From positions 35,564,894 through 35,628,893 of the forward strand of contig CM020618.1 of the NCBI GenBank assembly GCA_009829735.1: 64,000 nt of DNA, written 5' to 3'. The position numbers were made by a program, and so were the translations under genes. The DNA comes from Pyropia yezoensis. Taxonomy: Eukaryota > Rhodophyta > Bangiophyceae > Bangiales > Bangiaceae. The notes below the pieces were generated by a model. That model made no database searches, was not told the DNA's origin, and was given only the letters and a program-made list of their open reading frames with translations. Position 1 is the first letter of the stretch; each line of letters starts with the position of its first letter. This document shows, piece after piece, positions 29,710 to 52,424 of the stretch.

Positions 29710-31083
29710 CTAGGCATGCATTCTCGACTCTCCAACCCCACGGCCCTCGCCCTCACGTGGAGGCGAGCGGCGAGACCCACGGCGATAACGCTCCCCAACA
29801 GTCGGTGGGGCCGGCGGCTCCAAGTCGGAACCGCCGCGCCCCTCACGGTCGCGCAAGTGGCGACGACCGCGGCTGCCCTTCTGTTTAGTCTTGCGTGCAA
29901 GTTGGCGACGCAGACGCCGGACCGACTCCGACTCTGACGGAGTCGAGGACTCCGAGACAGAGTAAGACAACTCGTCTTCCGACACGGAGGGAGAGCGCCG
30001 CGAGTGACGGCGACGACAGCGAGGAGGCGAGTATGCCCGGCTCGCGCGACGTTTGCCACGCCCAAGCGGGGCTGGCTGGGGCATAATAGCCCCGATGCGA
30101 GCCAAATCGGCCGTCATAAACTCCGCCACCGACTCGCAACTCGCGGTCGCCACTGCAGTACGAACGCGCTCCTCAAGTTGAGGAGTCTCGGAAGTTTGAA
30201 GGGTTGCGGTCGACGCGGCCAACCAGGAAATGGTGCGCACCAACGTGGTGATCATCATCTCTGAGGTTAGAGGTGTTGGAGGTAACACCAACTTGGGGTT
30301 TACCGTCAGGAGGGTGGCCCCCAAGTTGGGGGACACCGGGGTGGACGACTCTACGGCCACGCTAATCGGGATGTCCCCGTGCGGCTGGTAGGGGACAGGA
30401 GGAAGTGGAGGGGCACGCCGAGGTGGCGGTACCCGGGTGTAACTGCGACCCCGACTTGGGGCCCCCGCAGTGGGTTGAGTCATATGGTCATCATATGAGG
30501 GCACGGCCATAAGTATGGGCTTGTCCGGGGGTGGCGCAGTGTGGCGATCCACTCCCGGGGCATACGGGTAGTCCCCGATGCCCAACCCCTCTCGTAGGAC
30601 CACACGGCCGTCGTGAAGTTCACGAGCGACCCACACGAACTGGCGAAGTGCGCCATCGTCCTTGGGCCCACGAGTGGGGCGGCGCAACTTGTGCTCAATG
30701 CTCTCCCACTCGATAAACTTGTGGAGGCGGAGCATCTCCTCAAGTAGAGTGAGTTGTCCTGATGAGCACCCCTCAGCAACTGGCTGAGGGGTGAGCTGTT
30801 CCAAACCTTGGATAAGCCGGAGGGGGAGATGCCAGAGCATCCCCCGCCGCTGAACACAAGACACCCAGGTCGACATGACCTCGAGGAGCCACTGGGTGGC
30901 CAACATGGCCCACACCAGGTGATCAGGGCCAGCCGTCAACATGACGGCGCCGAAGTGGTTAAGCAACCGTGGTAGCAACGCCGGGAACCCGTAGGGGACC
31001 TCAACTTGAGGCCACCACTCGGGCTTCTTCGGATAGTACTGCTCCTTACTGGCAGCCGACTGCTGAGGGATCTCACAGTTCCG
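29710..31083 (-). pseudogene. aORF A: antisense additional ORF of family A, N-terminally truncated
   Basis: Opposite in strand to gag-pol, its TAG (29712-29710) lies 112 bp from the pol stop, tail-to-tail. About 455 codons are open without interruption. Near the start is the motif KKPEWWPQVEVPYGFPALL, followed by alternating helices, then EHKLRRPT and VWVARELHDGRVVLREGLG, and YPYAPGV. A long Pro-rich linker leads to a Ser/Glu then Arg-rich tail. Residue patterns match aORF C and aORF B, both of which have about 200 residues before the WW motif. Here only about a dozen remain before the join to an inverted gag fragment, so the copy is truncated. Function unknown; the tail suggests a nuclear or nucleic-acid-binding protein. 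Confidence 0.7.
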
Positions 31084-31246
31084 GCAAAGCCTGCCGCAAC
31101 ACACCAGTCGCCTCCCGACAAACATTTTCCGCCAGAAGGGGGCTTTCGACTCCATTTGAGTCTCGTTCAGCCTCCGGGAGTCCACCTGAGGGGTAACCAC
31201 GATCCCCAGGAGTCTCAAACGAGGGCAAGGGCGCGAGCCCATCACC
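31084..31246 (-). pseudogene. Inverted fragment of a family A gag
   Basis: On the minus strand this encodes a stretch closely similar to the family A gag around 24035-24200 (for example GDRGYPSGGLPEAERDSNGVE). It starts at GGTGATGGGCTCG directly against an LTR end and ends near 31083, where aORF A begins. The missing upstream part of such a gag is found at 38932-39296, stopping at the same GGTGA. Confidence 0.8.
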
Positions 31247-31677
31247 TGTTGCGGAACTGGCCCTACGCAGGGGGCAGGGCGCGCCATGCTGGGGCGGGAG
31301 ACACCTGGTCATACCCGTTCCTGCCTCTGCATTTGATCCCGAATCTCCCTGAGTCAGGTTTTCTTTGCTTGATAGTTAATCCAACATGGATTCGAGGGTA
31401 TTCTGCATTTTTGTCGTCTTGAATTTTCGTGTGGCCCGGTGGACAGTTGCTGGGGTGGGAGATTCTGAGTGGCGAGATTCTGAGAAGACCACGTAGGGAC
31501 AAGGGGAGGGACACCGGGGCTTGGCCTCGCTTCTCCGTCACGACCAAGAAACTGTTGGCCCACACAACATCTTCTTGTCTCGTAGTGAAGGGATCGCCCC
31601 ACAACAGAGCCAGCGTGTGTGCGACTTGCACTTCGTCCTGTTCCCCCGACACGGGAGGCAGCCCAAGTGCACAGCCC
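31247..31677 (+). repeat. Family A LTR, left part, interrupted by N1
   Basis: This aligns with the LTR at 23073-23555 (shared GGAGATTCTGAGTGGCGAGATTCTGAG and GAATTTTCGTGTGGCCCGGTGG) and begins TGTTGCGG. It breaks off at ACAGCCC, where N1 starts, and resumes at 38771. Its outer flank is TCACC (31242-31246), the complement of GGTGA. Confidence 0.8.
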
Positions 31678-32368
31678 TATACTGGTTTTACGTACATTAG
31701 GCGCGTAGCACCCAGAACACGCAGATAAACAACCCACCAAGAACGCGGGGAGACCGGAGAGATACTGAACCGCCGACCGCCTGGCTGGTTCACGCGGGGA
31801 TCCGCGACCAGGACGACAGTGTTCAAGCACACGCAAGTCTGTTTCTTTTCGAAGGGGTAAACAACGCGCACCCCCACGCACACTCTTACCCTCTCTCACC
31901 CGCAGCCAGCAACCCTCCACAACGGGCCACGTGCGGGCCAATCAAAACCCTCCAACATGTCCGCAGGGCCCCCTCCCCCATGTATCATCCCTGCCAGCGG
32001 GGCAGGAACCTGCAAGCTACGGGGAAGAGGAGCCCCGCCGGACATCAGTGCCAACACTCAATATCTCCTCAATCTCACAATCTCGCAAAATACACAATCA
32101 CAATCCATACCCCAAATGCATCCCATCCCGGATTATTGACTAAAGTCCAATTCCGGTCAGGGGACACTTCTATACACTGGGAATCCCAATATGGGCCCCA
32201 GAACCGATTGCGACCCGGTCCCATCTCCATAGGAGGGGACCAATCGGAAGCCAGTGAAATCCCGAGGGGCCAAATCGACCCCGTCCTCCTCACTAGGAAG
32301 GTGGGCACAGGGGTACGACGCGATCTCTACGAGGCCCTTCCACGTGAAGGGCCCATAGGGTCCCTACA
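31678..32368 (-). repeat. N1 3' LTR (691 bp)
   Basis: It starts TGTAGGG on the minus strand (32368) and is preceded on that strand by a purine-rich GGAGGTGTGGGAAG, a plausible polypurine tract. From about 31683 to 32105 it is identical by eye to the other N1 LTR, but the remaining ~260 bp differ at about two dozen positions. Confidence 0.9.
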
Positions 32369-32971
32369 CTTCCCACACCTCCGGGGGGTTGCGACCCGCG
32401 ACCCAGACGGGGCAGAAATCTCCCGGGTGCCGAACGGGCGGCGGAGGCAACGCCACTTGGCAGCATGCCGTCCCCACCGCCCAGTGTACCGATCCCCATG
32501 GGGGGGGTCGATGACACTGGGTCAGCTCGGCCCCATGGTTTTTCCCCTTGGGGAGACAATCGTGGCCACAATCGTCGCACGACAGGGGGAATACGTGGAG
32601 ACGCCCCCTCCAAACCACCACCCGAGGGGTGGGGGTCCCAGCAAGGATGGGGCCCGTCTCCTCCCACGGCCCAGCCTGCACACGGTGGGGACGTGAGCGG
32701 ACTGGCTCTCCTGGCTTTGCCGAGAGAGATGGGTGCCCACCCGTCTGGGGTGGATCCGTGAAGGGGAGGGGGTTCCAATGGGTGCTCGCCGCGAGGGCGG
32801 CCACCTTCTCCTCCCCTCCTTCGTTGCCTCTCGCTGTCACCGGTCTGCGTGCGTCCCTTTCTTCCTGACCCCAAGCGTGGGGGTGGCATCCACGCACTTC
32901 CAACCTTCCTCTCCTGCGGAGAGTGGCCACTCAAGGCTACCCCGTTGGGGCCATCGGACCACACCGCCACC

Positions 32972-34513
32972 ATGGGTGACGGCGGCGGACCCGTATCCCC
33001 GTCGGCTCCTTCCTCCCCCCGTGGCCCTTCGGCCACGCGGATGCCACCCACCGCTCCCAGCGACGTTCTGATGAACGACGCCGGGAGCGGCAAGACTGAT
33101 GCCGGTCCGGCTTTGCCGGCCGAGGAACCTGTACCACCGCTGGCGGACTCGGAGGGGCCTGGCCCTTTCGGGGAGATAACCCCCTTCTCGAGGGAGTGGC
33201 CTTACTCACATCCTCTTCCCTGCGTGGTCACCGACCGCTGGACTCATGTCAACCCCCGCAGTGTCGCGGGCGATTGGGAGACGTTTCGTCATCTCTTCCC
33301 GGACCTATATGAGGTCCCTATTGGTACTCTCACGGACTACCCTGTCCTCCGCTTTCCGGATGACTAGAAGGTGGCCCGGCAGATGGAGGAAGGTTGTGAT
33401 CGCCCTCCGCTGCCGGAGGGAACTATGCCTGTCTTTGACCTGGCATACTATCCGGGACCGCTGCCTTCCATTGGGGAGCGCCCGCGTTGATACTTCCTGC
33501 GCCAAGCGCTGGCAGAGAATCGACATCGCCGGCGCCATGCCATATGTGCTTGCGCGGAGCAGCGGGAGGTCGAGGGCTTCACCCATAAAGACCAGCTGAA
33601 GTTCTACCTGGTCGCCCCCACTTGGTGGAGTGAGTACGAGGTGCCTCGCGGCGTGGCCGCGAGGATTGGCATCCTTGTCGCTCTCCGGGCTAGTCGGCTT
33701 ATGGCCGACGGACCCGACTCTGCGGCCAGGGCTACCCTGAAAGCGTGCTGGCTTGTGGAGGTGGCGGATGTACTATTTTCCTCCGGCCTGTTCCATGGGC
33801 ATGCTTGGCTTATCCCTCTTCCTCAGCTTCGGGCTCTCAAGGAGAGCCCTATTGACGTCCTTTGACAAGATCACCCTGACCGAGCCGCATACGTTCGGGC
33901 CCTTCTTCTCCTACTTGAGGAGGTACATCTCAAGGCTCTACCCTCATATCTGGGTCTTCCTATTCGACGCCGCTTGCTGGTCCGGTGCTCGCGGTCTTTG
34001 ACCTGCGAAGGTGCCCTCCTCTTGGAGGAGGGGTTGGCGCATGAGGAGCTCCCTTATGCTCCTGGCGTGGAGCCCACGACTCGAATTTCCGGCCCGGAGA
34101 CTCGTATGGAGGAGGAGGCACTCCGCCTTCCTGGCTTTGGCCAGGAGCGGTATGGTCTTTCCATACTGCCGAACTCCCCTAAGGGGAGTTACGGAGAGCG
34201 TGGGTCCGCATGTTCATCCGGTGGTAGGTCCTTTAGGCCACCTCCTCCACGGAGCTTTTCTCCGGGGGAGGAGATCCGGGCGCCGGGTGGGCGCCGTGTT
34301 CTTGTTTCGGAGCCTGTGGCTCCGTTCCGCTGGAGGAACTCGCCTTTGGCGTCGCCCCGTCCCATCCCGGTTTCTACTATAGCCGCTTTGGTGCAGGTCT
34401 TTGACCCGCCCCCTCCACTTCGAGATGATGTCGAGGACTCCCTTATTATGGGGTTGTGCCGGGCCTATACGGGCCTAGCCAACGATATGGCGACGATAGT
34501 CGCCACCCGTTAG
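32972..34513 (+). pseudogene. aORF C: antisense additional ORF of N1 (broken)
   Basis: Convergent with the minus-strand pol of N1. The ATG at 32972 has an ideal context (CCGCCACCATGGG). A Pro/Ser-rich N-terminus leads to DWETFRHLFPDLYEVP, then KFYLVAPTWWSEYEVPRGV and a helical region (LKACWLVEVADVLFSSGLFHG). A later region has EGALLLEEGLAHEELPYAPGV and a Pro/Arg-rich end. In-frame stops lie at 33365-33367 and near 33488. A frameshift near 33865 moves the C-terminal half to another frame, which ends at TAG 34511-34513. The WW motif, the PYAPGV motif and a helical end near a PPPPLRDD run match aORF A. No known domain was recognised. Confidence 0.65.
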
Positions 34514-34877
34514 GACTGGCGAGATATCCCGCCGGTGGCTTTGCCACTTCTCGGGAGGCGCTCGCAGAGCGCCTGGATCGGAAGCTGGGGCGAGCCAACA
34601 TGGATACCATGTTGCAGGTCCCCACTATTTCCCTCCGTGGTGCCGCCGAGGCAGCTTACGGTGGAGGGGGGCATGGCCCACGGTACCTCACTGGTTCCCA
34701 TTCTGACGGGAAGTGGGGGTATTAGTTTGCATAGTCTTCCCCGTCGTCAAGGGGCGTTGTGTGTTTTATTTTTTCTGCACGGGAAGGAGGGATGAGGGAT
34801 AGTTTCGCATGTTTTCCACCTCTTCCATAGGGACTGGCTTCGTCGTATTCCCCCCTCGTTGCCTGGGGGGCAGGTAT

Positions 34878-36893
34878 TCATCCTTCTCCCTCCGTTCCCC
34901 CTTGGGTTAAAAGTCGGGACCCTTCGTCCCGTCCCTTGATGGGGAGCTTGTGCCTTCGGGCATACTTCAGCAGAGCCTCCCGTGGCGGAGGAGCACGTGT
35001 GATGTTATCTTTACTCTGGGTTTGCTCTCCCGTAGGTGTTTCAATAAGAAACCGTTGCCCGTCTGTGCGCAGCAACATACACGGTTCCTTCGTCCTTGAA
35101 GACATTTTCGTCCGCTCCTCACATAAACCCAATATCTTTGAGACATATGTCTTTATCTTGTTGAATACCCGTGTCATAAACACGTTTGTAGGCCTCTTGG
35201 GCCTTATTCAAGTTCTTCCTCATCCGGGGGACTAGGTTGCGCATTTCCGTCAGATATTGATCCGCCGCCGTGTTGGCGTCAGGCTCCTCCGTGTCCACGG
35301 AGCGTATCTCAGCTGAACGCTCAGTATTCGAGGCTGGCAAGCGCCGAGGGCTCACAAAAGTCATTGGGGCTACCCCAGTGCTCGAAAGTAACTGCATATT
35401 ATATGCAGTCGTTAGGAAGGATACATTGCGATCCTATTCCTGTGGGTGCTCGGACGACTACGTCCGTAGCTGCCGCATGATTGTCTTATTATACCGTTCC
35501 ACTTGACCGTTGGTCTGTGGGTGATACGGAGTCGAATTGTTTGTGGAAATTTCAAGGAACCCCATGACTCCTTGGAAGTAGATGGCCGCGAAGTAAGGTC
35601 CTTTGTCCGCCAGAGTGGCATCCGGGATGCCATAGGCAGCCACCCAATAATCGATAAATGCAGAGGCTACCCCAAGGGCAGTAGTGTCCGATAGTGGGAC
35701 CGCCCTCACCAGTTTGGTGAACCAGTCGCACATCACCAGGAGCATGGTGTGACCATTCTCCGTCTTCGCAAGGGGACCCAACAGATCCATGGCCATCGAA
35801 TGGAATGGCTCATAAGCGGGGAACAGTTTCATAGGAGACTTATGCCTCCTGTCCGATATGCGATTCTTGGTGCATCCTGGGCAGTTGTAAACATACCCGT
35901 ATACATCTGCCACTAGGGCGGGCCCATAAAAATACTGGCGCATCGTCCTGTGCATCTTCCGGGAACCCGGATGACCCGCCGCAAGCGCATCTTGATGCGT
36001 TTCCAGAACACGCTTCCGCAGCGATTCCGGGATGACCCATTGGTTGTTCCCCCCGAATAGGGAGTGGCGACACAGTGCACCATCGTCGTCTTCGAAGAAG
36101 ATGGCGTTCTGCTGCCAACGGGAATCCTTTGGAGGGATGAGAGGCCCCTCCGCCCGGCGTTGTTTGCAGAACTCATCAGAGGCTTGGGCCACAATGAGCT
36201 CTCGAAGCGTAATCGCGCCGAGGCCCTTAGGGTTTCGATCCGTGAGGGCCTTTGCTGACCGGGTCACCGCCAATACAGGAATCTGGTCATCCCATGGTGT
36301 ACTATCCAAGCCACCTGTAGGAAGGTGAGACAGGGCATCAGCCACTTTGTGGCCCTTCCCCGGATTGTGCTTGATTTGGTACGAGAATTCCGCGAAGCGG
36401 AGCCTCCAGCCCGTAAGACGTCGATTAGGACTTTTGCTTGTCATCACAGAAGTGAGGGCAGATTGGTCACAGCGCACCAGAAATTCGAATCCTTCCAAAA
36501 AAGAACGCACGTAGGTCACTGACCATACCACTCCGAGTGGCTCAATTTCTGTGGCAAAATAGTTCCGTTCGGCCGGGGATAGACCCCGACTAAAATACCC
36601 GACGGATGATACTCCCCGTCCTCCTATTGTTGCAGCAAGGCGCCGCCCCGTTGCTCATAGCTGGCGTCCACCTCCACTAAATAATGGGCTCCCTCCCAAG
36701 GGATGGCCAAACTAGGAGGGTTCAAGAGGCAGTCGTGAAGCTCTTCTAACGCCGCTTGAGTCTCTTCCGTTGGGAGAGTTAGTTCCTCGGCTAGGTGCGT
36801 ATTTGTCAGCACGTTTAGCGGACGAGCGATACGGGCAAGATTCGGGACAAACCTTCGGTATACCCCACACATCCTCCTCTTGGGAGGCACCAT
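34878..36893 (-). pseudogene. N1 Pol remnant: end of RT, RNase H, integrase (broken)
   Basis: The minus strand starts inside the RT thumb (MCGVYRRFVPNLARIARPLN), continues through RNase H (YLVEVDASYEQRGGALL; FLVRCDQSAL) and the integrase. The integrase keeps a zinc-binding CPGCTKNR and DDE motifs in MDLLGPL, LADKGPYF and GQVERYNK. Asn of the usual DNGP is Lys here. Frameshifts near 36600 and 35458 break the frame. The C-terminal part includes LLRTDGQRFLIETPTGEQ, equivalent to the region after integrase in family A. No chromodomain was seen. Confidence 0.8.
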
Positions 36894-36894
36894 T

Positions 36895-37963
36895 CAAAAT
36901 GGCCTCCTGTTCATTCAGGAGATGCTCATCTGCGTACGCGCGCAGAAGCCAGTTCACCAGTTCCAGAAAGGAGGTCACCTCCCCAGTGCGCCGGCCGTCA
37001 TCGACGGACGGGCGAATTCGATAAAGGTCCCCCTTCTAGGGATCCTTCGTAAATTCCGCGAGGAGAAGCAAAGCTCGCCCCTCTGAGAGGCCATTACCAT
37101 TTGCCGCTTTTACGAAGCGGTTGAGAAATTCGAAGACTCTCAGAGGAGGGTCTCCCCCCCATTCACAACCCCGACCAAATATACTGGCCAGGTCCTTCCG
37201 CTTCTTACCCAGGCCTTGGGCCTCGGCTCCCGCTACTCGGTTGTCCTTGTTCTTGAGAGCACATGTCTCACGGTCGAGAGGGCTCGCGTAACGTTCGTCT
37301 GCCGGAACGATCTCGGGGGGGAATCTCCCGTAGGGGGACTCGCCCCGATCCTGCCTGAGCAGAAACCGCTCGGACTACAGGTCGCGGGCGCCGACGGCGC
37401 TCGGGAGGCGAAGCCTCCCCTCCGGAATAATCCGAAGTGGACTCAGATGACGAACTGGGCTGCCGACCACGCTGGCGCTCCCGCATCTGCACACTTCGCT
37501 CCACAAAACTCAACCGTTGGTTGAGCGGAGTCAGCAGGCCGCTAACAGCCTCCACCATTGCTTTGTTCCGATCCTCTGTAGGAGTACCCGATCCAGCGGC
37601 CACAAACGCTCGAGGTGTCTCCTAAGGAGACCATGCCCCCGTGAGGGGAACAGGAGGGGTGGGCGTTCCCTCAGAATCCACTCCCGCAAAGGGGAGATTG
37701 CCAGGAAAAGTGCCGAAGCCGGCTGAATGCCCTCCCTCGCGCTTCCCGCGCGGCTGGGAGTACGGTTCGCCCAATGGGCCTTCCGAACCGATTTCCAGCC
37801 GGGGTAGCCGGGTGGTCACGCTACGGGTGGCCAGGTCATCAACTCCAGTCCCTTGGACGCGCGGAGATGCAGCGCCTCCAATCGCGCCCTCCTTCGTCAC
37901 GGATGAACCGCCTTCCAGGACTCCTGTCTCCCCCTGAGGGGTATTCTCTTCGTTATCAGACAC
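36895..37963 (-). pseudogene. N1 gag remnant (broken)
   Basis: A Gly/Thr/Pro-rich stretch with no ATG, a TAG at 37624-37622, and a second same-frame stretch with a Ser-rich and Arg-rich block (37603-37268). It ends in the capsid phrase TSFLELVNWLLRAYADEHLL near 36978, matching SYLELVNWLLRAMVDEAA of family A. Immediately after it the sequence jumps to the RT thumb, showing the internal deletion that removed knuckle, protease and RT. Confidence 0.7.
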
Positions 37964-38059
37964 CTCTACAACCGCTTTCCCTTAGGGAAGACAGAGCACA
38001 ACCACAGAAAGAGTACGAAGAAGGGGCAGACCCCTTTGGCCAGATGGACCCTAGTCCCC

Positions 38060-38077
38060 TCCCCCGCTGATCCACCA
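38060..38077 (-). other. N1 primer-binding site
   Basis: On the minus strand TGGTGGATCAGCGGGGGA begins two bases after the LTR end (TACTACA). It differs from the site of the other elements (TGGTGGAGCAGCAGGGGA) at two positions. Confidence 0.75.
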
Positions 38078-38079
38078 AT

Positions 38080-38770
38080 TGTAGTAGTTTTACGTACATT
38101 AGGCGCGTAGCACCCAGAACACGCAGATAAACAACCCACCAAGAACGCGGGGAGACCGGAGAGATACTGAACCGCCGACCGCCTGGCTGGTTCACGCGGG
38201 GATCCGCGACCAGGACGACAGTGTTCAAGCACACGCAAGTCTGTTTCTTTTCGAAGGGGTAAACAACGCGCACCCCCACGCACACTCTTACCCTCTCTCA
38301 CCCGCAGCCAGCAACCCTCCACAACGGGCCACGTGCGGGCCAATCAAAACCCTCCAACATGTCCGCAGGGCCCCCTCCCCCATGTATCATCCCTGCCAGC
38401 GGGGCAGGAACCTGCAAGCTACGGGGAAGAGGAGCCCCGCCGGACATCAGTGCCAACACTCAATATCTCCTCAATCTCACAATCTCGCAAAATACACAAT
38501 CACAATGCAGACCCCAAATGCATCCCATACCGGATTATTGACCGAAGTCCAACTCCGGACAGGGGAAACTTCTGTACACTGGGATTCCCTATATGGGCCC
38601 CAGGACCAATTGCGACCCGGTCCTATCTCCATAGGAGGGGACCAATCGGAAGCCAGTGAAATCCCGAGGGGCCAAATCGACCCCGTCCTCCTCACTAGGA
38701 AGGTGGGCACAGGGGTACGACACGATCTTTTCGAGGTCCCCCCACGTGGAGGGCCCATAAAGTCTCTACA
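38080..38770 (-). repeat. N1 5' LTR (691 bp)
   Basis: Starts TGTAGAG at 38770 on the minus strand and ends CTACA at 38080, next to the primer-binding site. Same length as the 3' LTR. Confidence 0.9.
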
Positions 38771-38812
38771 CGCCCCAACTTGGGTGCTGCTTGTGCAACT
38801 GGTTTTGCCATA
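38771..38812 (+). repeat. Family A LTR, right part after N1
   Basis: It continues the LTR interrupted at 31677 (CGCCCCAACTTGGGTGCTGC...TTTTGCCA). A degenerate primer-binding site, TGTTGGAGCAGCAGGGGA, follows at 38815-38832. The two LTR parts together make about 473 bp. Confidence 0.8.
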
Positions 38813-38931
38813 TTTGTTGGAGCAGCAGGGGACCGAAGTAAATTTTAGCTCCGGGTGCACCCGGGTGTAGCGGGCTCCCTGTCTCAAAGGAACGATGGTC
38901 TTGGTCTGTGTCGTACGGATCGTTAGCCAAC

Positions 38932-39296
38932 ATGGCTGGATCGGACCCCGCGTCGTCCGGAGACCACGCGGGTGACGCACGTACACGAGTGCCTTCGAAT
39001 ACTGTTGAGACACAGGTAGGTGTACCTGGGGTCGCAGAGGGACTAGAGGTATCTCAAGCCAGCAGGACTGGGAGTGCGGGCGGGCAACTGGCCTCCCTGA
39101 CTTAGTCGGGAGATCATTCGGGTGACACGCCCGATGATGGTGGGACGAAGTCTGGCCACCGGGTAGCACACTCAACGAGAACCTCCCAAGGTGAGAGGAC
39201 TGTCCCCGCGGGATCCACTCTGGTTGGAGCCAACTTTGGCATGGAGGCATCGCCAGCTAGGCTTTCGGAGGACGGCGGAACTTCGTTTGCCGGTGA
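38932..39296 (+). pseudogene. Family A gag, 5' fragment
   Basis: From the ATG at 38932 the product parallels the first ~120 residues of the gag at 23675 (MAGSDPASSGDHAGDART versus MASSDPPSSGESTGDART). A TAG interrupts it at 39103-39105. It stops at GGTGA (39292-39296), where an inverted LTR begins. Confidence 0.8.
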
Positions 39297-39766
39297 TGTG
39301 GCAAAAACCGCTTGCACACGCAGCACCCAAGTTGGCGCGGTGCACAAAGCCTGCGTCCCGTGTGAGCGGGGGCCGGAAGAAGTGCAAGTCGCACGCACGC
39401 TGTCTCTGTTGTGGAGCAATCCCCCCACCAGTAAACAAGAAGATGGTGTCTGGGCCAATAGTTTCTTGTTCGGGACGGGGAGGCGAGGCCAAGCCCCGCT
39501 GTTCTTCCCCTTATCCTCCCAGGGTCTTCTCAGAATCTCGCCACTCAGAATCTCCCACGCCAGCACCTGCCCACCGGGCCACACGAAAATTCAAGACGAT
39601 AAAAATGCAGAAAACCCTCGAATCCATGTTGGATTTACTATCAAGCAAAGTATACCTGACTTAAGGAAATTCGGGAAGAAATTTTAAGGGAGATTCGGGT
39701 CAGACCAACTGTCTCCCGACCCCGTGTAGTGCGCCCTGTCCCCTTCTTGCGGCCAGTTCTGCCGCA
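39297..39766 (-). repeat. Family A LTR, inverted (470 bp)
   Basis: The reverse complement aligns along its length with the LTRs at 23073 and 31247. On the plus strand it begins TGTGGCAAAAACC directly after GGTGA and ends CTGCCGCA at 39766. Read antisense to the LTR, it shows the same open frame as the other two copies. Confidence 0.8.
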
Positions 39767-40482
39767 CGGGGGGGGAGGCCGAACTTTCATGGACCCCTGA
39801 GGCAAGGGCATCGGACAGGGGAGGCAGGCGGTGATAGTGGGGAACCAGGTCCCCTTTGTGATGTTGGGAAGCGCCGGGGGGCGGGGGCAGAAAGGGGTGT
39901 CGGGGTGCTAAAGAACGCAACGTTCTTCACGTGATTAGTGTACGGGACTGAGCTGGCTTGGCGGGGGTCAATCTTTTGCGCGCTACGCATGGGCCGGCCC
40001 CGGGTTCCGCACCTATTTATTTTTTGCAAGGAGGATGGGATGGGTGAGGGGGGGGGGGTGAGACGTATCCGTCTGACGTAGAGAGGGCATTTCATCGTGG
40101 GGGGGGCACAAGAGACACTTTACCTGCTGCCTTCTCCGAGGGGGCGGACCGGGATGCGTCATTGTCCATGGTGGTGTTCGGGGGGCTGCGGGGGATCGTT
40201 TTGGGCTGGGCGGCGTGACCGTTGGTGGAGGAGGGAAGATGAAGAGTCAACGGCGTCCCCGAGGGACCGAGTGGGACGATACGTGGCTGAACAGAGACGC
40301 CATGACGCGTGACGGGTGAGTCAAGATGGGGTCGCTTGTCGACGTGCCGCGGGGGGTCTTTGTGCCCTGGGCGCGGGGGGGGCTCGAAGGTTCTAATGAT
40401 CATCAAGTGCCCGCATCCTCCTGGAAGAAGTGCGTCATTCTCGCCCTAGCGTCCACCACCGAGGAATGCGCTACGAAAATCC
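39767..40482. other. Intergenic DNA right of the family A complex
   Basis: About 700 bp with a G-run at 40050-40059 and no recognised gene or repeat. Confidence 0.5.
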
Positions 40483-41625: not shown

Positions 41626-41626
41626 T

Positions 41627-41644
41627 TGGTGGAGCAGCAGGGGA
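41627..41644 (+). other. Family B+ primer-binding site
   Basis: TGGTGGAGCAGCAGGGGA, identical to the sites of E1, family A and B-. Confidence 0.8.
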
Positions 41645-42259: not shown

Positions 42260-45200
42260 GTCGAGGACCGGCGGGCAGTGTCCCCGACGCACCCTTGCTC
42301 AAACGACCCGCAAGACGTAAGATCACCAAGATCCTAAGCAAAGCCCATCGGCACTACGAGATCGCAGCCTGTATCGGCTCTGAGCTAGCGAATACGCGAA
42401 GCTTAAGGCCCATACTTGACACCGGGGCAGGTGTCAACCTCATCCGACAGGATGTCTTGCCGCCACATTGGCGTGATCACGCGACAACTCTGCACAATGC
42501 CCCGCACATGGTTGATGCCAATGGGCAAACGATCAACGCGCCACAAAGCATCCACCTGTTCATCGACACCGGGGGGGTTCAAGGCTTTCAAAGTTTCTAC
42601 GTTATCCCAAACCTGTCGGTCAAATGCATCCTCGGCACCGAGTTTGTGGGCAAGCACGTGGAGGCAATATGGGCCCGACTCGAACGTATCGTTTGGCAAT
42701 CCTCGAACGATCGTTCGACGGCTCACTCTCCCATCTTGGGCATCCAGTACAACAATGTTATGGAACAACAATGGTCCGAAGGATCATCCAAGGTCCGCGC
42801 GTGTAAGCAAACACGAATCAACGGCAAGACCGAACAATGGATCATGGTCAGATGTGAAGTCCCCGTCTGCTAACGCTGCAGCCAAAGGCACGTCTTTGCA
42901 GACACAAGTCAATGGCAATTGCCCGAGGAGTTGCAACAGTCAACCCGAACGAACTACTCCTGGTGAAGGTGTGCAACTTTGGGCCAGACATGACCATCAT
43001 CCGCAAGGGCAGCATCGTTGCGTTCGCCGAACAACACCTCGGTCAAGTACTCACGGCTCGTTCGGAGAAAGACGACCCGGCGGCGCCGAAGGACGAGCAA
43101 ACAAAACCGTCACTCGACGACATCGACCTTCAAGATGCGCCAAAGTATTGCATGCGCAAATCAAGGCGCTGCTAGCCAAACACGGCAAGATGTGGGACGG
43201 GACTTTCGGAGTCATACACGCTACTGAGCATGACATCGTCACCCCACCAGGGTTCGCCCCCGTACGAGCTCAACCATACCGAACCGGTGCGTTCAAACGG
43301 GCGATCATCGTCGACCAGATCAACAAGATGTTGAAGCTCAAGGTTATCAAACCAAGCCACAGTGACTGGGCCAGTCCCGTCGTCATTGTCCCGAAGAAGA
43401 ACGGGAAGGCCCGGTTCTGCGTCGATTATCGACGATTGAACAGCGTCACCAAGAAGGATGCGTACCCACTTCCTCGTATGGAGGACTGCCTTGACTCCCT
43501 CGGAGACACCAAGGTCTTCACGTCTCTCGACTGCACTGCCGGGTATTGGCAAGTACCCCTGCGAAGGGAGGACCAAGAGAAGACGGCCTTCACGACGCAC
43601 TACGGCATCTTCGACTGGACAACAATGCCATTCGGCTTGACCAACGCGCCGGCAACTTTCCAACGAGCCCTGGATATTATCCTGTCCGGACTCAAGTGGC
43701 AAGTTTGCCTAGTCTACTTAGACGACGTTATCATATTTTCGGCAACCGCCAAACAACACATCCATGATGTAGACACCGTCCTCACCCGACTTAGGGAAGC
43801 GGGCGTTGCCCTCAATCTTGAGAAGTGCAAGTGGTTCTCCAACGAGGTGGAGTACCTCGGCCACAGCATAACGCCTGGAAAACTCCACGTTCTAAACAAG
43901 AACACGGAGGCGCTGCGTCACGCGACATTCCACAAGACCAAGACCCAACTCAAGAGTTTCCTCGGCATGTGCAACGTCTACTGACAATTTGTAGTCGACT
44001 TCACTATGCGAGCACGACCGCTCAACGCGTTGACGAAGAAGGAAGTCCCACCGGACTTGGCGCCACCCTCAGTTGAGGAGCAGGCCGCCTTCGAAGACCT
44101 CCGTGACGCCCTGGTGCACTCTCCTATCTTAGCCTTACCAAAGGCCGGACGCGAATTGACACTGGATGTCGATGCAAGTGCGTATCAACTTGGGTGCACG
44201 CTGCTCCAATCGGACGATGACGGCAACCTACAGCCCGTTGGTTATTGGAGCCGATCACTCAACACAGCGGAGCTCAACTACTCCACAACGGAGAGAGAGT
44301 GCCTAGGCATCGTCTGGGCCGTCCTCAAGTTGAGGCACTTCCTCGAAGGTCAACGCTTTGTAATCCGCTCGGACCGCCAGAGCCTTGGCTGGATATACAG
44401 CACTGCCGATTCAAGCGGGCGACTAGTGCGATGGCGTTTGCGCCTAGCGGAGTTTGACTTCGAATTGAAGTACAAGCCTGGTGCCAGCCACCACTTGCCC
44501 GATTTTCTGTCCAGAGCGGACAACAACGCGGTGACTGAACCCATCAACGATGACATTCCATGCCTAGCGGTTGCCCAGACGGCACACGGCGTTCGAGCCC
44601 ATCGGTACACGGGTAAGTCCGACCCGACACCCGTCGACTACTACGATGTCATAGACAAGCAGCAATCCGATGATTTCTGCAAGTCAATTATGGACAGCAT
44701 CGCCAAGGGAGGTCACAAGTCGTTCATCATTGACGACGACAACGCGCTGCGTCGCAAGACACCCTATGGAAACCAAATGGTCATACCCAAGTCGCAAGAA
44801 GAAACCATCTTGAAGCTCCAACATATGGCGACCACCGCCGCCCACCCGGGCATGAACAAGATGTACTTCACCATGAGAAGAAAGTTCTACTAGCCGCCCA
44901 TGATATCTGATATCCACAGCACTATCACCAACTGCACCACTTGTGCACAAAACCGGTTGGCGCTGCGAAAGCATACGACACCACTCACCCTGTTCCCAGC
45001 TTCGGAACCATTGACCGAGTTGTCAATTGACATCCTTGGCCCGTTGCCTGCGAGTAAGAACGGAAACCGCTTCATCTTGGTCATTACCGACCGGTTCGCC
45101 AAGCTCACCAAGTGCATAGCACTGAAGACCATCACTGCCATCTCGGTTGCATCCGCCGTTATTGAGCACTGGATCGCGTGCTACGGACCCCCGGACAAGA

Positions 45201-46706
45201 TCTTATCCGGTCAAGGCCCACAGTTCATTTCGAACTTCGTCATCGCTGTGATGAAGGTACTCGGTGTGGAGACGGTGCGCACTACCGCGTACCACCCGCA
45301 GACCAATGGTCAAGTGGAAAGGTACAATCGTACGATGACTACCCAACTGCGACACTACGTCACGGAGGACCCCAAGCGCTGGGACGAGCTTCTGCCCGTC
45401 CTCACTACGGCTTACAACAGCCAACCACATCGGTCCACAGGACTGGCACCATTCGAACTGGTCATACCACGTCACGTGCCGAACTTGTCAGTCCGCAACT
45501 TGCCTCCTGGCACACCCCTCACCCCGCGCGGCACGCTGAGTGACGGCTCCCCACTCGCAAAGAAGCGAGAGTTCATGGCCCGACTGAGACTGCAGATACC
45601 TGCCGTTGTCAAAGCGCTTACAAGGACACAACAACGTTACAAGCGTAACTTCGATGCCCACATTGGGGATCGCAACCGTAAGATCAAGATCGGTGACTGT
45701 CTACACGACAAACCACCAACGAGCTAATAAGCTGCAAAGCAAGGCCATTGGGCCGTTCATCGTCGTCGACGCCGACGAGTCAACGTTTGTGATCGACGTT
45801 GATGGAATTGAGAAGCGCATCAACAGCGACCACGCCACTGCGGCAACACGCCCGGACGACGCGGAAGAGTCCGCACCGCACCCACTGCTCGATGGGTTTG
45901 ACAAACCACGACCCAAGCCGACTGTCCACGACGAGTACGTCATCGACAAGCTCGTGTCTCATCGTAAGACTGGTGATTCCTACGAATTCAAGGTGCGATG
46001 GTATGACTATACCCCCAAGGATGACACGTGAGAACAGGTTGAAAACCTGCCACGTAACTTAGTCATTCGACATTTGAGGTCCAAGAAGGTAGAAATACCT
46101 GGATACACGTGGCGAAAACCACGCAAGCCGACCACCAAGGTTGCCTTGGCTACTGGACTTGCCGCGCTCACTTGCGCTAGCGCCACTATTTGGCAGCCCA
46201 ACATCCTCGCGGTCTACGTCGACCCATGGGGGGTGGTACAGGCTAATGTCCAATGGGACAACGCAGACCGCTCTGTTCATGAGAACATTCCTGTGTACTA
46301 CATGAAGTCAACATTGCCTTCGGCATGTCGGAACTTCACCTCCCCCACATGGGGACCACTAGAAGAACTCCCGGAACTCACAAGGCACTATGGCCGTTTG
46401 AGTTACCAACACGAGAAGCACGTCACTCCCCACGAGCAACCCCACTCACAGGGCATGTGCCTGAGGATACCCCCCACCCACACTCTCGAGCAGGTCGTCG
46501 CAGAGATACAAACCAGTCCAAAGGACACACTCCTGGTCACCCCACGTTGGGAACACGCCACATGGTTCGCAAAAGCCAAGGAGCTCTGTCTAGAGTATAA
46601 AATACTGATGCCGCTGCTCAAATCTAACGCAACGACAACGGAATGGGCAAAGACTGCTTTCCTGTTCCAGTGCAAACGCACAAGACTCAAGCACAAGCAA
46701 GACTGA
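42254..46706 (+). pseudogene. Family B+ Pol with C-terminal extension (multiply broken)
   Basis: Domains in order: retropepsin (LDTGAGVNLIR), RT (FCVDYRRLN, PFGLTNAPATFQRA, YLDD near 43720), RNase H (LTLDVDASAYQLGC) and integrase (AHPGMNKMYF zinc region, CTTCAQNR, SIDILGPL, LSGQGPQF, GQVERYNR). A chromodomain (FKVRWYDYTPKDDT) and a ~190-residue extension with a hydrophobic stretch and TPRWEHATWF follow. Breaks are frameshifts near 42870, 43150 and 45700, and stops at 43982-43984, 44891-44893 and 46029-46031. The second integrase Asp (D in LSDQGPQF of B-) is Gly here, so this copy could not integrate even if translated. Confidence 0.88.
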
Positions 46707-47893
46707 CGGGCTAGCCACGTAACACCTGTCTCAACGCACCGCCATCAAGGTCGTTTGACCATCATGGTCCACAAAGCACGCATACACTGGCGACGTGATG
46801 CGAGTATCGTCTTGGTCTACCGACCATCGACCATGTTGGTCTACCGTAGGCTACGATTGTGACCCACTACCGGCCGAGCGGCCTCCACGCACTCATCGGA
46901 GCTCCGGCCACACCACCGGCCGCCACCGGAACAACCTTGCCCGCCACACCCGCGAGGGCCGTGGGCAATCACTCACACCGACTTTGCCATATGCTCTCTG
47001 TGCCGCCTTGGCCGCCCGTCAACGCGCAAAGAAGTCTACGACTGATACAATGCCAACAGGCGAAGCGTGGGGACGTGGCCGACTGGCCGGCAACCTCGCA
47101 GCCACCTTGGCCGCCCTTGCCCCTTGGTCGCCCTCGCCGCTTGGCCGCCTACCTTGGCCGCCCTTGGCGATTGGCCGTCCTTGACCCCCGCCGCACGTAA
47201 ACCACTTGGTCACCCTTGCCGCCTTGGCCTCCCGTCACCTCGTAACCTATGGCTGGATCATGCCAACAGGCGATGTGTAGGAATGTGGCCAACTGGCCGT
47301 CAACCTCGAACCTCCCCGGCCGTAGCACAACGGCGCTACCCGCACTCAAGCAACAGCTCAAGGTGCCGACTGGCAAACGTGTCGGACCATGGCCGACTGG
47401 TCAGCGACCACACGCCCGTGCACCCGCGCGTCGAGCCAACGCACGGGAGGGCCAACCGGCCGTGACCCCAGCACCACGCGGTACTCCGCCGAGTCAACAC
47501 GGGCCGACCACACGGCCTGCACGTAAACAACGGCCCAACACGCCGACAGGTGAACACGAGATCGGTGGCCAACTGGCCAGCGACCACACCCGCCCGTCAG
47601 GCTATCACCGGGAGGCCAACTGGCCGCGGCTCAACAACCTTGTCCTTGACCACGTAGTGCACTGCACTATGTTACGTGGCACGCCGCTCCGCGACCGGCG
47701 CGAGGCAAGCAGTGGGCCACACCACGGCCACACTGAACCGAAGCTTCTGGAAGCACCAACCGGTGCTGGCGCGACCCCGGCACGCTTGCTGGAGGCCACG
47801 CCCGGAGCATCCCGCCCACACAGGGCACAACCGGCAGCAAGCTTGCACCCGACCGGATCTCGCCGGGACGGCTCGAAGCTTGCAACGGGGGTA
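46707..47893. other. B+ region between pol and 3' LTR, no aORF
   Basis: In family A, N1 and B- this interval holds an antisense ORF. Here no frame resembles one. The segment contains the repeat array annotated at 47070-47640 and otherwise nothing recognised. Confidence 0.6.
47070..47640. repeat. Dispersed array of GTGGCCAACTGGCC-type units
   Basis: At least six copies of a near-palindromic core GGCC(A/G)ACTGGCC, often followed by (A/G)(G/T)C(A/G)ACC, occur near 47077, 47286, 47391, 47452, 47566 and 47611. Cores near 47077 and 47286 continue into closely similar CAACCTCG. Confidence 0.6.
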
Positions 47894-48157
47894 TGTAGCA
47901 TATCCGCCCTTAGTACCAAATTCCGGTATTGTCTAGCTAGTAGCCCCCCTGACTGGTGGTCCCAACCTTGTCGGTATGGGCCACTTGTGGCTCGCCCTTT
48001 GGGGACTACTTTTGTTTTGTATTGTTTATCTGTCCATGCCTTGGAGGGATCGTTTATGTTGATTGCCATGCTCGTAGGGATCGGCCGCCTGGCCTCCGCT
48101 CGGTCGCTCGACCAGCATGTTATTTAGCCCTTATCTGCGACGTGGGGGCTCGCCGCT
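47894..48157 (+). repeat. Family B+ 3' LTR, truncated (264 bp)
   Basis: Begins TGTAGCATATCC and follows the 5' LTR closely to CTCGCCGC near 48157, then diverges abruptly into unrelated DNA, missing about the last 140 bp. Confidence 0.85.
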
Positions 48158-50254
48158 CTACACGCCGGTTTTTTTTCGTCCTTTTCTTTGAGGCTTGTCA
48201 AATGCCCGTAGACGTCGCTTTCCACGATTTTGACGGTTATGACAAGACGTGCAGCGACGGTGCGTACCTGAAGGACGTTGAAAAAAAGTGTTGTACTGCC
48301 GTCTTAGAAGACCATCCACAACACTTCTCAAGCATCGTACAAGCATTGGGCGTGGCAGCATGTCGGTCGCAGGCCGCGTTTAGGCCTGTTCGGCCTGAAC
48401 TAAGAGGAAGTCCCGCTGGAAAAGGAGGCCCAACTGGCGTCTGACCTGGTACTGTTGGGATTGAAGGGCACACTTTGTAGTCTAGTGAGACATGCGAAAC
48501 GCCTCGTTGGCAGACCCAAACCCTCCGTAATGAAGTCGGGATGGATTGACACAGGCAACTGACTGAGTCATTACAAATAATCAACAGACACTCCACAAGT
48601 GAGTGTTCGGCTTCTTGCTCCCTCTGCAATCGCCGCATCGCTACGAAGTGCTGGGCTCATGGGCATCACGCTGGGCAGGTGTTGGTGTCCCCCGCGAGAA
48701 ACCGGACAAACTGCCTGCGCCTCCGCCCTGACGACGCATCGTCCCCCGGCCATGCTCCATCTCCCTCACCCCCCAGTTCCCTTCCCTCCCCCCCCTTGCC
48801 TCTGCGACCTACGATGTGGCCGGGGTGTCCCACGCGGTTGGTTGGCGACGGTGACCGGCGACGATGGCCGGCGGGGGGAGCTGACGGGGTTGGCCTGCGG
48901 CGATGGCCAGCCGCTGATGCCTTGGGCGGTGGCCTGCCGCTGGCATTTCCAGGCACTTAATCGGTACTGCTTCTCCACTCATTAGCGATGCGTTAGCTTA
49001 ACAAGACGCACGTGTCGCACTTACTCCTGCTTTACGTCGGCTGCGCAACCAAATTCGATTTAGTTTTACCCGTCGTTTCAGCCCGGAGGGCCTGCTTGAC
49101 AAGCGCCGTACACACAAGCCGTTTGGGCCCATAAACAGGCTTGTCATGAATCCCGCGTCTGGGACCACTGCGCTGGCCGCACAGGTGCCAGCTGGCCGTA
49201 CTGGTGCCACCCACCAAGGGGTTCTTCGCCGGCTGGCCGCACTGATGCCAAACACCAAGGGGTTTTTCAGCACAGGAGTGAGCCATGGAGAAGCCTATGG
49301 TCCGTTGCACAAAAAAGATCCATCGAGGTTTTTTCGGCTCGGGCTCGGGCAGCACCTCGGCCGTGACGGGGTCCACGGCCGCCATGCTGACAGCAGTATC
49401 ACAGAGGTCCTTGCGAACTCATGAGGGCCTTGGGTCTCCTGGTAGTGTACCGCTCTGAGGACACCCTGAGTGGACCGGTTGCTGACCACCTTGAAAACGG
49501 GGCCATCCTTTTCGCATTGATTTGCACTGCTCGGGGGCTGGTTCTTGCCCATGTGCTAACAGAGGCTTGGAAGAGGGGTGGTCAGATCTGGGGAGAACCC
49601 AGCGGGTGCCTGGAGGCCATTTTTTGAGTTCTTTTTCCGTGAGCGAGTCCTCGTTTTTTGAGATGGCCGTTCGTGGGGTAAATGTTCCATGTCATGGGCT
49701 CGTCTGATTGGTCCACGAAGAAGCCGGGTCCTCACGTGTGAAATGCCATTTCTGGCTTTATGTACATATCGCCTGGTGCCCCTCATGAAGTGGTTTTCTC
49801 GTCCCCCTGCCTCTCCTGGTCCCCTCTCCTGGACCAGATACCTCGAGGAGACAATCCGCCCCTACTTCCCGCCACCCCCTCCACCCTCCGGCAGTACCTC
49901 ATGCGGGGACTTAGGCGAGTCCACTAACGGCGGACGGAGCGCTGCTCGGGGTGCTGCGCCCAGACTGAATGGGTTCTTCGCAGGCACCAACAGTGTCCGG
50001 CCCCATGGAACAAGATGACAGCAGCGTCCCGCGCCTGTGGGGTGTGAGGGGTGGGGGCGTGGATCGTGTGAGACGAGACGCAAGTGCACAACGCGCCTTG
50101 CTGCTTTTTGCCTCTTGGGCTGACCGCGCCTTTCGCGAGGCCCCCCAATATTCGGTCTCCACATAGCCGTGCGTCATTCCAGCACCACTTCGCTGCCGCT
50201 CCCGTTCAAGCAGAAGTACCGCGCCCTGCCGCCCATTTCCCTTATGCCAGTCGG
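48158..50254. other. Unannotated DNA between B+ and the assembly gap
   Basis: About 2.1 kb without a supported gene. A CACCAAGGGGTT(C/T)TT phrase occurs twice (near 49211 and 49253). Since B- should extend left of the gap, part of this could be its aORF start, 3' LTR or flank, but I find no family B LTR sequence here. Confidence 0.45.
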
Positions 50255-50754
50255 NNNNNNNNNNNNNNNNNNNNNNNNNNNNNNNNNNNNNNNNNNNNNN
50301 NNNNNNNNNNNNNNNNNNNNNNNNNNNNNNNNNNNNNNNNNNNNNNNNNNNNNNNNNNNNNNNNNNNNNNNNNNNNNNNNNNNNNNNNNNNNNNNNNNNN
50401 NNNNNNNNNNNNNNNNNNNNNNNNNNNNNNNNNNNNNNNNNNNNNNNNNNNNNNNNNNNNNNNNNNNNNNNNNNNNNNNNNNNNNNNNNNNNNNNNNNNN
50501 NNNNNNNNNNNNNNNNNNNNNNNNNNNNNNNNNNNNNNNNNNNNNNNNNNNNNNNNNNNNNNNNNNNNNNNNNNNNNNNNNNNNNNNNNNNNNNNNNNNN
50601 NNNNNNNNNNNNNNNNNNNNNNNNNNNNNNNNNNNNNNNNNNNNNNNNNNNNNNNNNNNNNNNNNNNNNNNNNNNNNNNNNNNNNNNNNNNNNNNNNNNN
50701 NNNNNNNNNNNNNNNNNNNNNNNNNNNNNNNNNNNNNNNNNNNNNNNNNNNNNN
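50255..50754. other. Assembly gap (500 N)
   Basis: Exactly 500 unknown bases, probably a scaffold gap of nominal size. It interrupts the start of aORF B, and the expected 3' LTR of B- may be collapsed here. Confidence 0.98.
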
Positions 50755-52424
50755 CGTCGTTGCCAACTTTCGGGACGCGTCAATCGACGGGCGGTTCTAC
50801 GAGGGCGAGTCCGTGTCGGACGTCCATGGTCATGCTGACTTTGGTCGTCAAGGGCCGGAACGGCAGGCGTACGAGGTGTTGTCGTTGTCCAACGAGTTGC
50901 TGCGGTACGGGGCGGCTGGTGGTCTTCACCCTTATCATTCGGCGTCTGTACGCTTGGGCGCTTGCCTTTCGTGTCGGGCAAGTTGAGACCTTTGTGGTCG
51001 CGGCCAACAACTTCGACCGTCTTCGCCGGCTGTGGCCTTCGGCCGTGTTCTTGGCACGTGACTTGGCCGAGCGGCTTGATGTGCCTATCGCGGAGGACCA
51101 TGGGCTAGAGGAGTATCTGGCCATGTTGGCTGACAAGGTTGCCCATGGGGTGCGTCCGGCGGGCGTCGAATTTGGTCCTGCGACCTGTTCGCTTCCTAAC
51201 CCGTTCCGGGATCCGACGACGTCGATTCGTCTTCGTAGGTCGTGGGACCTGGCGGCCTTTGAGCGTCGCGGCCTTTTGGCGCCGGCTTGGGCGTCCAGCC
51301 TGGGGCGCGCACGCCCGTTCTTCGACCTGAAGCGTTGGCTTCCATCACGCCCATCGTGGTGGGTTGAGTACGGACCGTACATGGAGACGCCGGCGGCATT
51401 GTCGTACGTCGCCAGTGGGCTTAAGGACGCAGATAACGCGGCTTGGGGCGTCGTGTACGACGAGTTTTTCTGCTTTGCCTTGGCGGCTTGGGTGCATTGG
51501 CTCGTCCATGACGGACTTTTTTGCTGGTTGCCGGACCAAGTGACCGAGTGGTTCGACGGGTTGGACGTGTCGCGGCTGGCCGATGGGCCCGGGGGTGAGG
51601 AGCGTCTTGCGACGTACCACCGTATGCGTGATGCACACGCCGTCTTCCCGTGGACAACCATTGTCGCCGACGTCCGCCGACGTGATGAGCGCACCAAGGC
51701 GGCTCGCCAGGTGTACGTCAAGTTGGACGCGACGGCCAAGTATGGCTTCGTTCTTCGTCAGCCGTGCGGCGCGTTTGATTGGAAGTATGACGCCTCGTGG
51801 GAGGGTGGTGACGAGTCGTCCGGACCGGGTCGTGGTCCCGGTCGTGGTCGTGAGACCGGTCGTCGGGTGCGGGACGCGTCTCGGTCGTTGTCGCCGGTGG
51901 CCGGTGCGGGGTCAAGTGACCGTGTTAACCCTGGTGTGGTTGCCCCTGTGTCCGGTGGGACCGGTGGCACGGAGCCGATCTGGCCGTCGGAGTGGGCCCG
52001 TGTGGGTGCTGTTGCCCTGTTGGGTACTGACCGGGTGGGTGCCTTGGATGGGCAAGTGGTGCCTCGTGGCGCAACGGCTGGGGCGTTGGCCATTGCTTGG
52101 TCTCGTCAGACCGTGGAGATTGATGACGTTCTTCGTCGGGTCAGTGGGATGACTGAGTCGGAGGCCGTTGAGGCTTTGGTGTTGACGGTCTCCCGTTTGG
52201 CGGATCCGTCTCGCATTCGCGATAGCTTGCTCAGTGAGCTGCGTCGTGCGCCCTCGGTGGAGGCTCGGGCTGCGATTCCTCGTCGTGTTGACGTTGGTGC
52301 CATTCTTGGCGTTCGTCGTCGACAGATGTCGGATGACGAGGAGGAGGGTGCGCCTCGTGCGTCGGCTCGGCGTGTGCGCTCGCGCAGTTCGTCTTTTGAC
52401 GAGGGCTCGCGACGTCGCCGTTGA
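50755..52424 (+). CDS. aORF B: antisense additional ORF of family B, partial at the gap
   Basis: Convergent with the minus-strand pol; the two stop codons are only 41 bp apart. The 5' part reads in one frame (RDASIDGRFYEGESVSDVHG) until about 50900. The rest, over 490 codons to the TGA at 52422-52424, is open in another, so one frameshift or a gap-edge sequence error is likely. Features in order: NNFDRLRRLWPSAVFLARDL, matching WETFRHLFPDL of aORF C; WLPSRPSWWVEYGPYMETP (WW motif); and WVHWLVHDGLFCWLPDQV. Then come RQVYVKLDATAKYGFVLRQP, a Gly/Arg-rich linker, a helical region, DDEEEG and an Arg/Ser-rich end. No known domain was found. The long open frame, with Arg/Ser tail, argues for selection at protein level. 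Confidence 0.65.

Follow-up and report, generated by a model that had tools for sequence, protein, structure and literature searches.

Accessory genes in antisense orientation to gag-pol have been described mainly in plant LTR retrotransposons and in one fungal element, and the accounts in PMC11963269 and PMC7264820 assign them no known function. In plant Retand elements, as described in PMC11963269, antisense ORFs (aORFs) of the TRP28 type (PF04195) lie between pol and the 3′ LTR and occur in nearly all recent Retand clusters, with function given there as unknown; TRP28 is reported only from flowering plants, and Retand is a non-chromovirus lineage. According to PMC7264820, Gene23 of Grande is a nuclear antisense accessory gene with its own promoter, and Boty of Botrytis is a fungal retrotransposon with an antisense ORF, which gives aORFs outside plants a precedent. 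By description, comparable systems are also the antisense protein gene HBZ at the 3′ side of HTLV-1 (PMC11963269, PMC7264820) and the extra ORFs common to different retroelement types among bdelloid rotifer LTR elements (PMC5408684). No antisense ORF in red-algal retrotransposons was found in the open-access literature searched.

The window analysed here is a stretch of 64,000 nt from Pyropia yezoensis (GCA_009829735.1, CM020618.1, 35,564,894-35,628,893), in which three chromovirus families (A, B and C) have a long ORF between pol and the 3′ LTR on the opposite strand, none of the copies within the window being intact. The first-pass annotation had reported three long ORFs, each opposite to the pol of its own element, and this was confirmed at all three places. 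Like the Retand aORFs, those of Pyropia occupy the slot before the 3′ LTR in antisense orientation, and by description they also resemble Gene23 of Grande and the antisense ORF of RIRE2 as antisense accessory genes. They differ from Retand in that the host is a red alga and the carriers have chromodomains, which speak against the Retand lineage. PF04195 gave no match at E up to 1, a range in which HMMER's filters discard the majority of those weaker than about 0.1, in the aORFs of A, B, C and D, in the homologues E (a dispersed repeat, see below) and P0002, or in 13 family members. The Pyropia aORF is regarded as a further case of the known Grande/Retand-type antisense ORFs, with a protein lacking the plant-domain match.

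Element A begins with a 5′ LTR (23085-23555, + strand) followed by gag and an interrupted pol with RT, RNase H, integrase and chromodomain (23651-29598, +), and 111 bases separate the pol stop codon from that of the aORF. The reading frame of the window aORF-A extends over 29710-31287 on the − strand, but only 29710-31080, stop codon included, is native, its residues 70-525 corresponding to 192-647 of complete copies. The remaining N-terminal extension (31081-31287, −) is not native: an inverted gag-like piece (31076-31246 versus 24035-24205) overlaps codons 1-69 of the window ORF, a region for which about 191 different codons stand in complete copies. The span proposed earlier was 29710-31083. 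Element B, on the − strand, has a 5′ LTR at 38087-38771 and a 3′ LTR at 31685-32369 (96.5% identical to each other), with an RNase H/integrase piece of pol at 35458-36531. Its aORF (32972-34513, +) is broken by in-frame stops at 33365, 33488 and 33863, positions placed by hand, and its final stop is early relative to L062, a less broken copy elsewhere in which a chromodomain-like stretch was read by eye. In element C2 the 5′ LTR (58870-59283, −) and gag-pol (52466-58741, −), which encodes integrase, chromodomain and a C-terminal extension of about 200 residues, are followed by aORF-C (50755-52424, +). The start of aORF-C falls in a 500-N assembly gap (50255-50754); a frameshift lies near 50940, the conserved frame runs from about there, and homology sets in at residue 62 of the stated ORF. 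A second C element, C1 (41220-48156, +), has its aORF deleted, leaving a remnant of aORF start and spacer at 46823-47305.

Outside the window, complete copies were found at 16 of 29 loci for aORF-A (647 aa) and at 17 of 29 for aORF-C. The native part of aORF-A has at least 82 matches genome-wide, window copy included, nearly all at 94-96% identity, and it is free of stops in 72 of 82 among the matches listed. For aORF-C at least 20 long matches, again with the window copy, are 97-100% identical, and others among the matches listed fall at 84-87% and 70-72%, the lowest reaching 41%. The order LTR, aORF, antisense pol was observed at 25 of 29 A loci and equally at 25 of 29 C loci, scoring an LTR when within 1.5 kb upstream of the aORF, and at none of these 29 A and 29 C loci was pol on the same strand. 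The 5′ LTR sequences of window elements A and C2 each recur upstream of the respective aORF in 26 of 29 other loci. Among the matches listed, 58 of 81 aORF-C copies have antisense pol at most 3 kb downstream, and the others have no listed pol (23/81), same-strand pol being found in 0/81. The reported location between pol and the 3′ LTR therefore holds as a family property in A and C. Inside the window, no 3′ LTR of C2 was found, the aORF start there falling in the N gap, and the LTR-like stretch that comes after element A (31270-31677) has only 82% similarity to the 5′ LTR of A and is part of an A-type stretch in which element B sits.

The search for further antisense copies in other elements returned many, including a fourth chromovirus family, D, with an aORF tail-to-tail with pol. 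The arrangement of A and C was seen, for the pol side only, in one further B copy and in one D copy; the aORFs of A, B, C and D thus have the same placement relative to pol, and never the same strand where both were found. Domain content assigns all four carriers to the chromoviruses (chromodomain Ty3/gypsy): the Chromo match of C is above the curated cut-off (E 9.4e-10), those of A and D are below it but at the right place, and D has an RT at E 1.5e-37. The aORF is present in four lineages and, among the matches listed, tail-to-tail within 4 kb of 31 of 41 long C pol copies; it is shown to belong to the element. Six of the ten listed C pol copies without it belong to an aORF-less subfamily, which was seen, apart from C1 of the window and its twin, at no fewer than seven dispersed sites. 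Each of these seven adjoins a pol match, has room for only about 0.4 kb at the expected site and has no listed aORF match within 5 kb. One dispersed C subfamily has thus lost the aORF, which fits supply of the protein in trans, although the protein may equally be read as dispensable.

Comparison of the proteins with shuffled sequences showed A-B, A-D and B-D at z 28.7, 29.0 and 62.4, respectively, and all ten pairs among A, B, D, E and P0002 at z 15.0-62.4. By these alignments the five are homologous and form one family, with a shared core around WWxxxEVPxG and the second W 115-118 residues before the core. The position of C is different. The pairwise A-C match has a BLASTP E of 4e-9 and z 10.5, C ranks first (E about 3e-4) when A is compared with 2 real and 2000 shuffled sequences, and the score of the WW block was reached by 0 of 2000 shuffles. 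Against B, D, E and P0002, however, C gave z 0.6-1.9, not above shuffles; profiles built without C failed to recover it, ranking it among shuffles, and hhalign gave 5% and E 0.008. C therefore probably belongs to the family, through A alone. The best reading of these similarities is that A, B, D and probably C are one fast-evolving family, so that the earlier proposal of the same aORF in the three lineages is upheld for A and B, as is its check against shuffles (A-P0002 included), with the membership of C not fully supported.

Among the landmarks proposed earlier, WW is indeed present in all three window ORFs. YPYAPGV had been attributed to A and C but occurs in A and B and not in C, and the Arg/Ser-rich tail attributed to A and B is found in A and C, with none in B; RS/SR dipeptides were above shuffles in 0 of 7 sequences. 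The FRxL(F/W)P motif said to link B and C is the best-scoring place in C; it precedes WW there by 115 residues, in keeping with the 115-118 of the other five sequences, but that score was reached by 39% of 2000 shuffles.

Selection on the aORF frame was purifying in A, with dN/dS 0.23 among 29 copies (28 loci and the window copy) and third codon positions accounting for 61% of the differences, dN/dS falling from 0.39 to 0.17 with pair age. At the same loci (28, without L020 and the window copy) it was 0.22 for the aORF, 0.22 for the integrase core and 0.28 for integrase-C/chromodomain, the two pol parts coming from 23/28 and 21/28 loci as they were kept only if ungapped and >85% identical to L006. 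Within the aORF, values were 0.16 for the core, 0.27 for the tail and 0.34 for the N-terminal part (26/28 loci). Non-coding divergence in A was 0.15 for the LTR and 0.13 for the spacer, figures that may be inflated by misalignment because three loci lack that LTR. In the C set (26 of 29 loci, with L054 excluded because of its length, L059 and L060 also omitted, and no window copy), dN/dS between subfamilies was 0.162. In the same-locus comparison, one C pair had 0.139 for the aORF versus 0.083 for integrase. The expectation of values well below 1 was thus satisfied in A and between C subfamilies, but not in the youngest C copies, where dN/dS was 0.91 with 35% of differences at third codon positions and no constraint was seen, or in the one pair of E compared (1.06). 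The aORF is shown to encode a protein on which purifying selection acts at about the level seen for integrase, and the dN/dS and codon tests agree with the earlier view of a selected protein in several chromovirus lineages.

These data bear directly on the notion that the long ORFs are functionless by-products of composition. The genome is GC-rich, and in some C copies the frame is open far past the conserved start (941 aa), but the position-3 enrichment, the low dN/dS in A and between C subfamilies, the homology between lineages and the stops per copy (2-30 in other frames versus 0.1-0.5 in the aORF frame) make this explanation highly improbable. Tail-to-tail genes yield convergent transcripts, and PMC7264820 considers a regulatory antisense RNA in the case of plant aORFs; that the transcript works as RNA, through dsRNA or siRNA, with the ORF secondary, is nevertheless improbable given that selection acts on codons, and an RNA role may exist alongside the protein. 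Slightly less probable again is an env-like or second capsid protein with a structural or cell-exit function: the slot is that of env and the core is predicted, at low confidence, to be mostly helical, but the orientation is antisense, the proteins matched no known Pfam domain or PDB sequence, and no useful fold match and no significant viral one was obtained with two poor models (mean pLDDT 43).

Somewhat less unlikely is a hitchhiker, a gene taken over from the host or from a different mobile element and retained because it benefits that unit. This is favoured by repeat E, a dispersed repeat that has recurrent ends, measures about 5.1 kb and encodes a 342-residue aORF homologue in its longest ORF; pol, gag and LTR were looked for in it and none was found. 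A length of 4.68 kb was discarded for this repeat when additional probes located its 3′ end farther downstream. Against such a hitchhiker stand the integrase-like selection on the A and C ORFs, the placement relative to pol shared by A, B, C and D, and the dN/dS of E in its single pair. A related possibility, which we hold only tentatively, is that the family is a module common to unrelated mobile elements, being carried antisense as an accessory gene by three or four chromovirus lineages at least and forming the main gene of the pol-less repeat E, that would serve chromoviruses in trans and be derived from, or the source of, another transposon.

The aORFs are probably accessory protein genes that Pyropia chromoviruses carry, in antisense orientation, in the interval from pol to the 3′ LTR. 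The position of the ATG is shared by 24 of 28 A loci and by 27 of 28 C loci. A putative antisense RNA would start between the 3′ LTR and the start codon; the 400 bases before that codon held no TATA box at 29 A and 28 C loci, and one stray CCAAT. The protein would be translated from this RNA and could be supplied in trans. The tails of A and C are basic and R/S-rich, resembling nuclear signals, and B, D, E and P0002 are without a basic tail. HBZ is a bZIP protein. For the aORF protein the most likely role would be that of a nuclear regulator acting on the RNA or the transcription of the element, in line with what has been proposed for antisense ORFs in plants.

In plant Retand a link of the antisense ORF to another transposable element was, according to PMC11963269, sought and not found; if the module reading of the aORF family is true, such a link may exist in Pyropia. 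Since this red-algal protein lacks the plant-domain match and is under integrase-like selection, the antisense slot that separates pol from the 3′ LTR may have been filled on several occasions. One compact genome offers many complete copies here, and the aORF-less subfamily can serve as a natural control, so that the function of an antisense gene becomes testable outside land plants.

The aORF, a long open reading frame that runs antisense to gag-pol between pol and the 3′ LTR and encodes a WW-core protein, is a family property of the chromoviruses carrying it. In the P. yezoensis genome searched (107.5 Mb), the best 82 of 4231 candidates gave at least 82 family A rows, window included, 72 of the 82 being stop-free over 456 compared codons among the matches listed, and a complete 647-aa aORF was found in 16 of the 29 A loci read. 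Family C gave at least 81 rows, which include several pieces of one copy, at identities from 100% down to 41%, and the 29 C loci read held a complete 628-aa ORF in 16 cases and a 632-aa ORF in one. Searches with pieces of aORF-B returned 51 rows and at least 150 rows, and its WW piece further matched other lineages, which were about 46-33% identical to it, and also family A, 27-33% identical with E 3e-9 to 3e-7. Antisense pol lay downstream in 28 A and 27 C loci, an LTR lay upstream in 26 of each and both were present in 25 of each, with pol on the aORF strand in none of these 29 A and 29 C loci. Among the matches listed, opposite-strand pol followed within 3 kb downstream for 58 of the 81 C aORF rows (23 were without) and same-strand pol for none of the 81, and 31 of 41 long C pol rows had a tail-to-tail aORF row beside them, which was absent for 10. 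One family D locus and one further B copy agree with this arrangement on the pol side.

As judged from substitution patterns, the aORF codes for a protein under selection. In 29 copies of aORF-A, dN/dS was 0.23 with 61% of differences at codon position 3; the reverse frame sharing that position gave 0.30 and the remaining alternative frames 1.07-2.34, and stops per copy numbered 0.17 in the aORF frame vs 9.5-17.5 in the other five. With pair divergence dN/dS fell from 0.39 to 0.17. The 19 youngest C copies gave 0.91 with 35% of differences at position 3, so that constraint is not visible among them, the 86% group (7 copies) gave 0.47, and the value between these two groups was 0.162. A gene selected while the element propagates, and free to decay once inserted, leaves such a pattern. 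Across 28 A loci dN/dS was 0.22 for the whole aORF, 0.16 for the core around WW and 0.27 for the tail, with 0.34 for the N-terminal part (26 loci), 0.22 for the integrase core (21 loci) and 0.28 for integrase-C/chromodomain (23 loci). One C pair gave 0.139 for the aORF, 0.083 for integrase and 0.28 for the C-terminal pol extension. Between lineages the integrases are 42-55% identical and the aORFs, in their longer alignments, 23-37%, so the aORF evolves faster than integrase. The B pieces of the window compared with another locus (L062) gave 0.48, as for a dead copy, one pair of the dispersed repeat E gave 1.06, and two short D comparisons (synonymous 6 and 3, nonsynonymous 5 and 4) held too few differences to judge selection.

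Homology among lineages was scored as z of the local alignment against 300 shuffles. Values with A were 28.7 for B, 29.0 for D, 27.0 for E and 57.2 for P0002, a protein from a 30-kb JGI contig; those with B were 62.4 for D, 48.4 for E and 15.0 for P0002; and D-E, D-P0002 and E-P0002 reached 28.7, 19.9 and 17.8. Eight partial relatives in Logan and EukProt were 63-80% identical to A. For C, the score with A (z 10.5) exceeded 300 of 300 shuffles, and z was only 0.6, 0.8, 1.4 and 1.9 with B, D, E and P0002. A W/F landmark stands 115-118 residues ahead of WW in all six sequences, C included, where its block scores highest of all places yet is matched by 39% of shuffles; the WW block of C outscored 2000 of 2000. 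Profiles built without C did not recover it, and hhalign of C against the family gave 5%. C is probably a member of the aORF family, at about three chances in four.

Through repeat E the protein family extends beyond chromoviruses. E spans about 5.1 kb with recurrent ends (L068:2609 to about L067:1019, contig C2) and encodes a 342-residue homologue in which the tail is absent. Its 5′ end was found at 25 or more places, with starts within 8 bases of one another; among the matches listed, the terminal 72 bases were present in a further copy at 17 of 25 places, 30 of 40 scored 3′ ends stopped within 5 bases of one another, and the 3′ part occurred at at least 40 places vs at least 25 for the 5′ end. 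A tblastn search of L063-L065 and L067 showed neither gag nor pol of A or C type, two copies examined yielded no LTR pair, and neither an inverted terminal repeat nor a target duplication was seen in the one copy tested. A SWIB-domain coding stretch lies close to one copy (L067:4524-5201).

None of the aORF copies in the window, which spans 35564894-35628893 of contig C1, is intact. Element A (+; LTR 23085-23555) comprises LTR, gag, an interrupted pol with a chromodomain-like end and then the antisense ORF. The 3′ side of A is rearranged, with the first 69 ORF codons overlapping a gag-like piece in inverted orientation. Just past aORF-A, element B (−; LTRs 31685-32369 and 38087-38771, 96.5% identical) is inserted into an A-type 5′ region, and its own aORF, on the + strand, is broken. 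The B flanks (31270-31677 and 38767-39302) are A-type LTR/gag start and join up relative to 23112-24044. In element C2 (gag-pol 52466-58741, −) the aORF, on the + strand, has one frameshift and its start is covered by an N gap; no 3′ LTR was found in the window. The pol of family C runs some 200 residues past the chromodomain (52466-53149, −, and 46074-46706, +), including a hydrophobic stretch, without a match in Pfam. Probes from B, C1 and C2 (33491-33862, 46560-47000 and 50940-52421) have twins about 434 kb off in the same order (contig C1: 35163896, 35176951 and 35182567) at 100% reported identity, the B tail twin being in two pieces at 93-97%; either a recent segmental duplication or an assembly duplicate would account for them.

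Element C1 (41220-48156, +) belongs to family C like C2 and has lost the aORF. The same state was found in its identical twin and at seven more places (C2:13291468, C1:13677018, C1:23957146, C2:22931638, C2:15327307, C3:6914940 and C2:27291589), with about 0.4 kb from the pol end to the remnant of the aORF start vs 1.9 kb normally, as estimated from coordinates; among the matches listed, none of the seven had an aORF row within 5 kb. The dispersal of these copies fits supply of the protein in trans, or its dispensability.

Because aORF and pol converge tail-to-tail, their stop codons lying 111 bases apart in A, about 110 in D and some 40-50 in C, the aORF is predicted to need its own antisense transcript. 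Between the 3′ LTR and the aORF start no TATA box and one CCAAT were found; red-algal promoters are poorly known. The promoter would most simply lie in this interval, by analogy with maize Grande, for which PMC7264820 reports the antisense gene's own promoter at such a place. The basic, R/S-rich tails of A and C weakly suggest a nuclear destination, weakly because B, D and E are without them.

PMC7423979 puts repeats at 48% of the P. yezoensis genome, LTR retrotransposons chief among them, and a 2012 survey (PMC3350952) detected no retrotransposon chromodomains among the P. yezoensis data of that time. Antisense ORF proteins of plant Retand elements have a TRP28 domain, whereas the Pyropia aORF proteins gave no TRP28 match when tested. 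An antisense ORF is already known from the fungal element Boty, according to PMC7264820 and PMC11963269, and searches of the open-access literature turned up no description of the present family or its carriers. Antisense ORFs as such are known; the aORF family and the red-algal chromoviruses that carry it are probably new.
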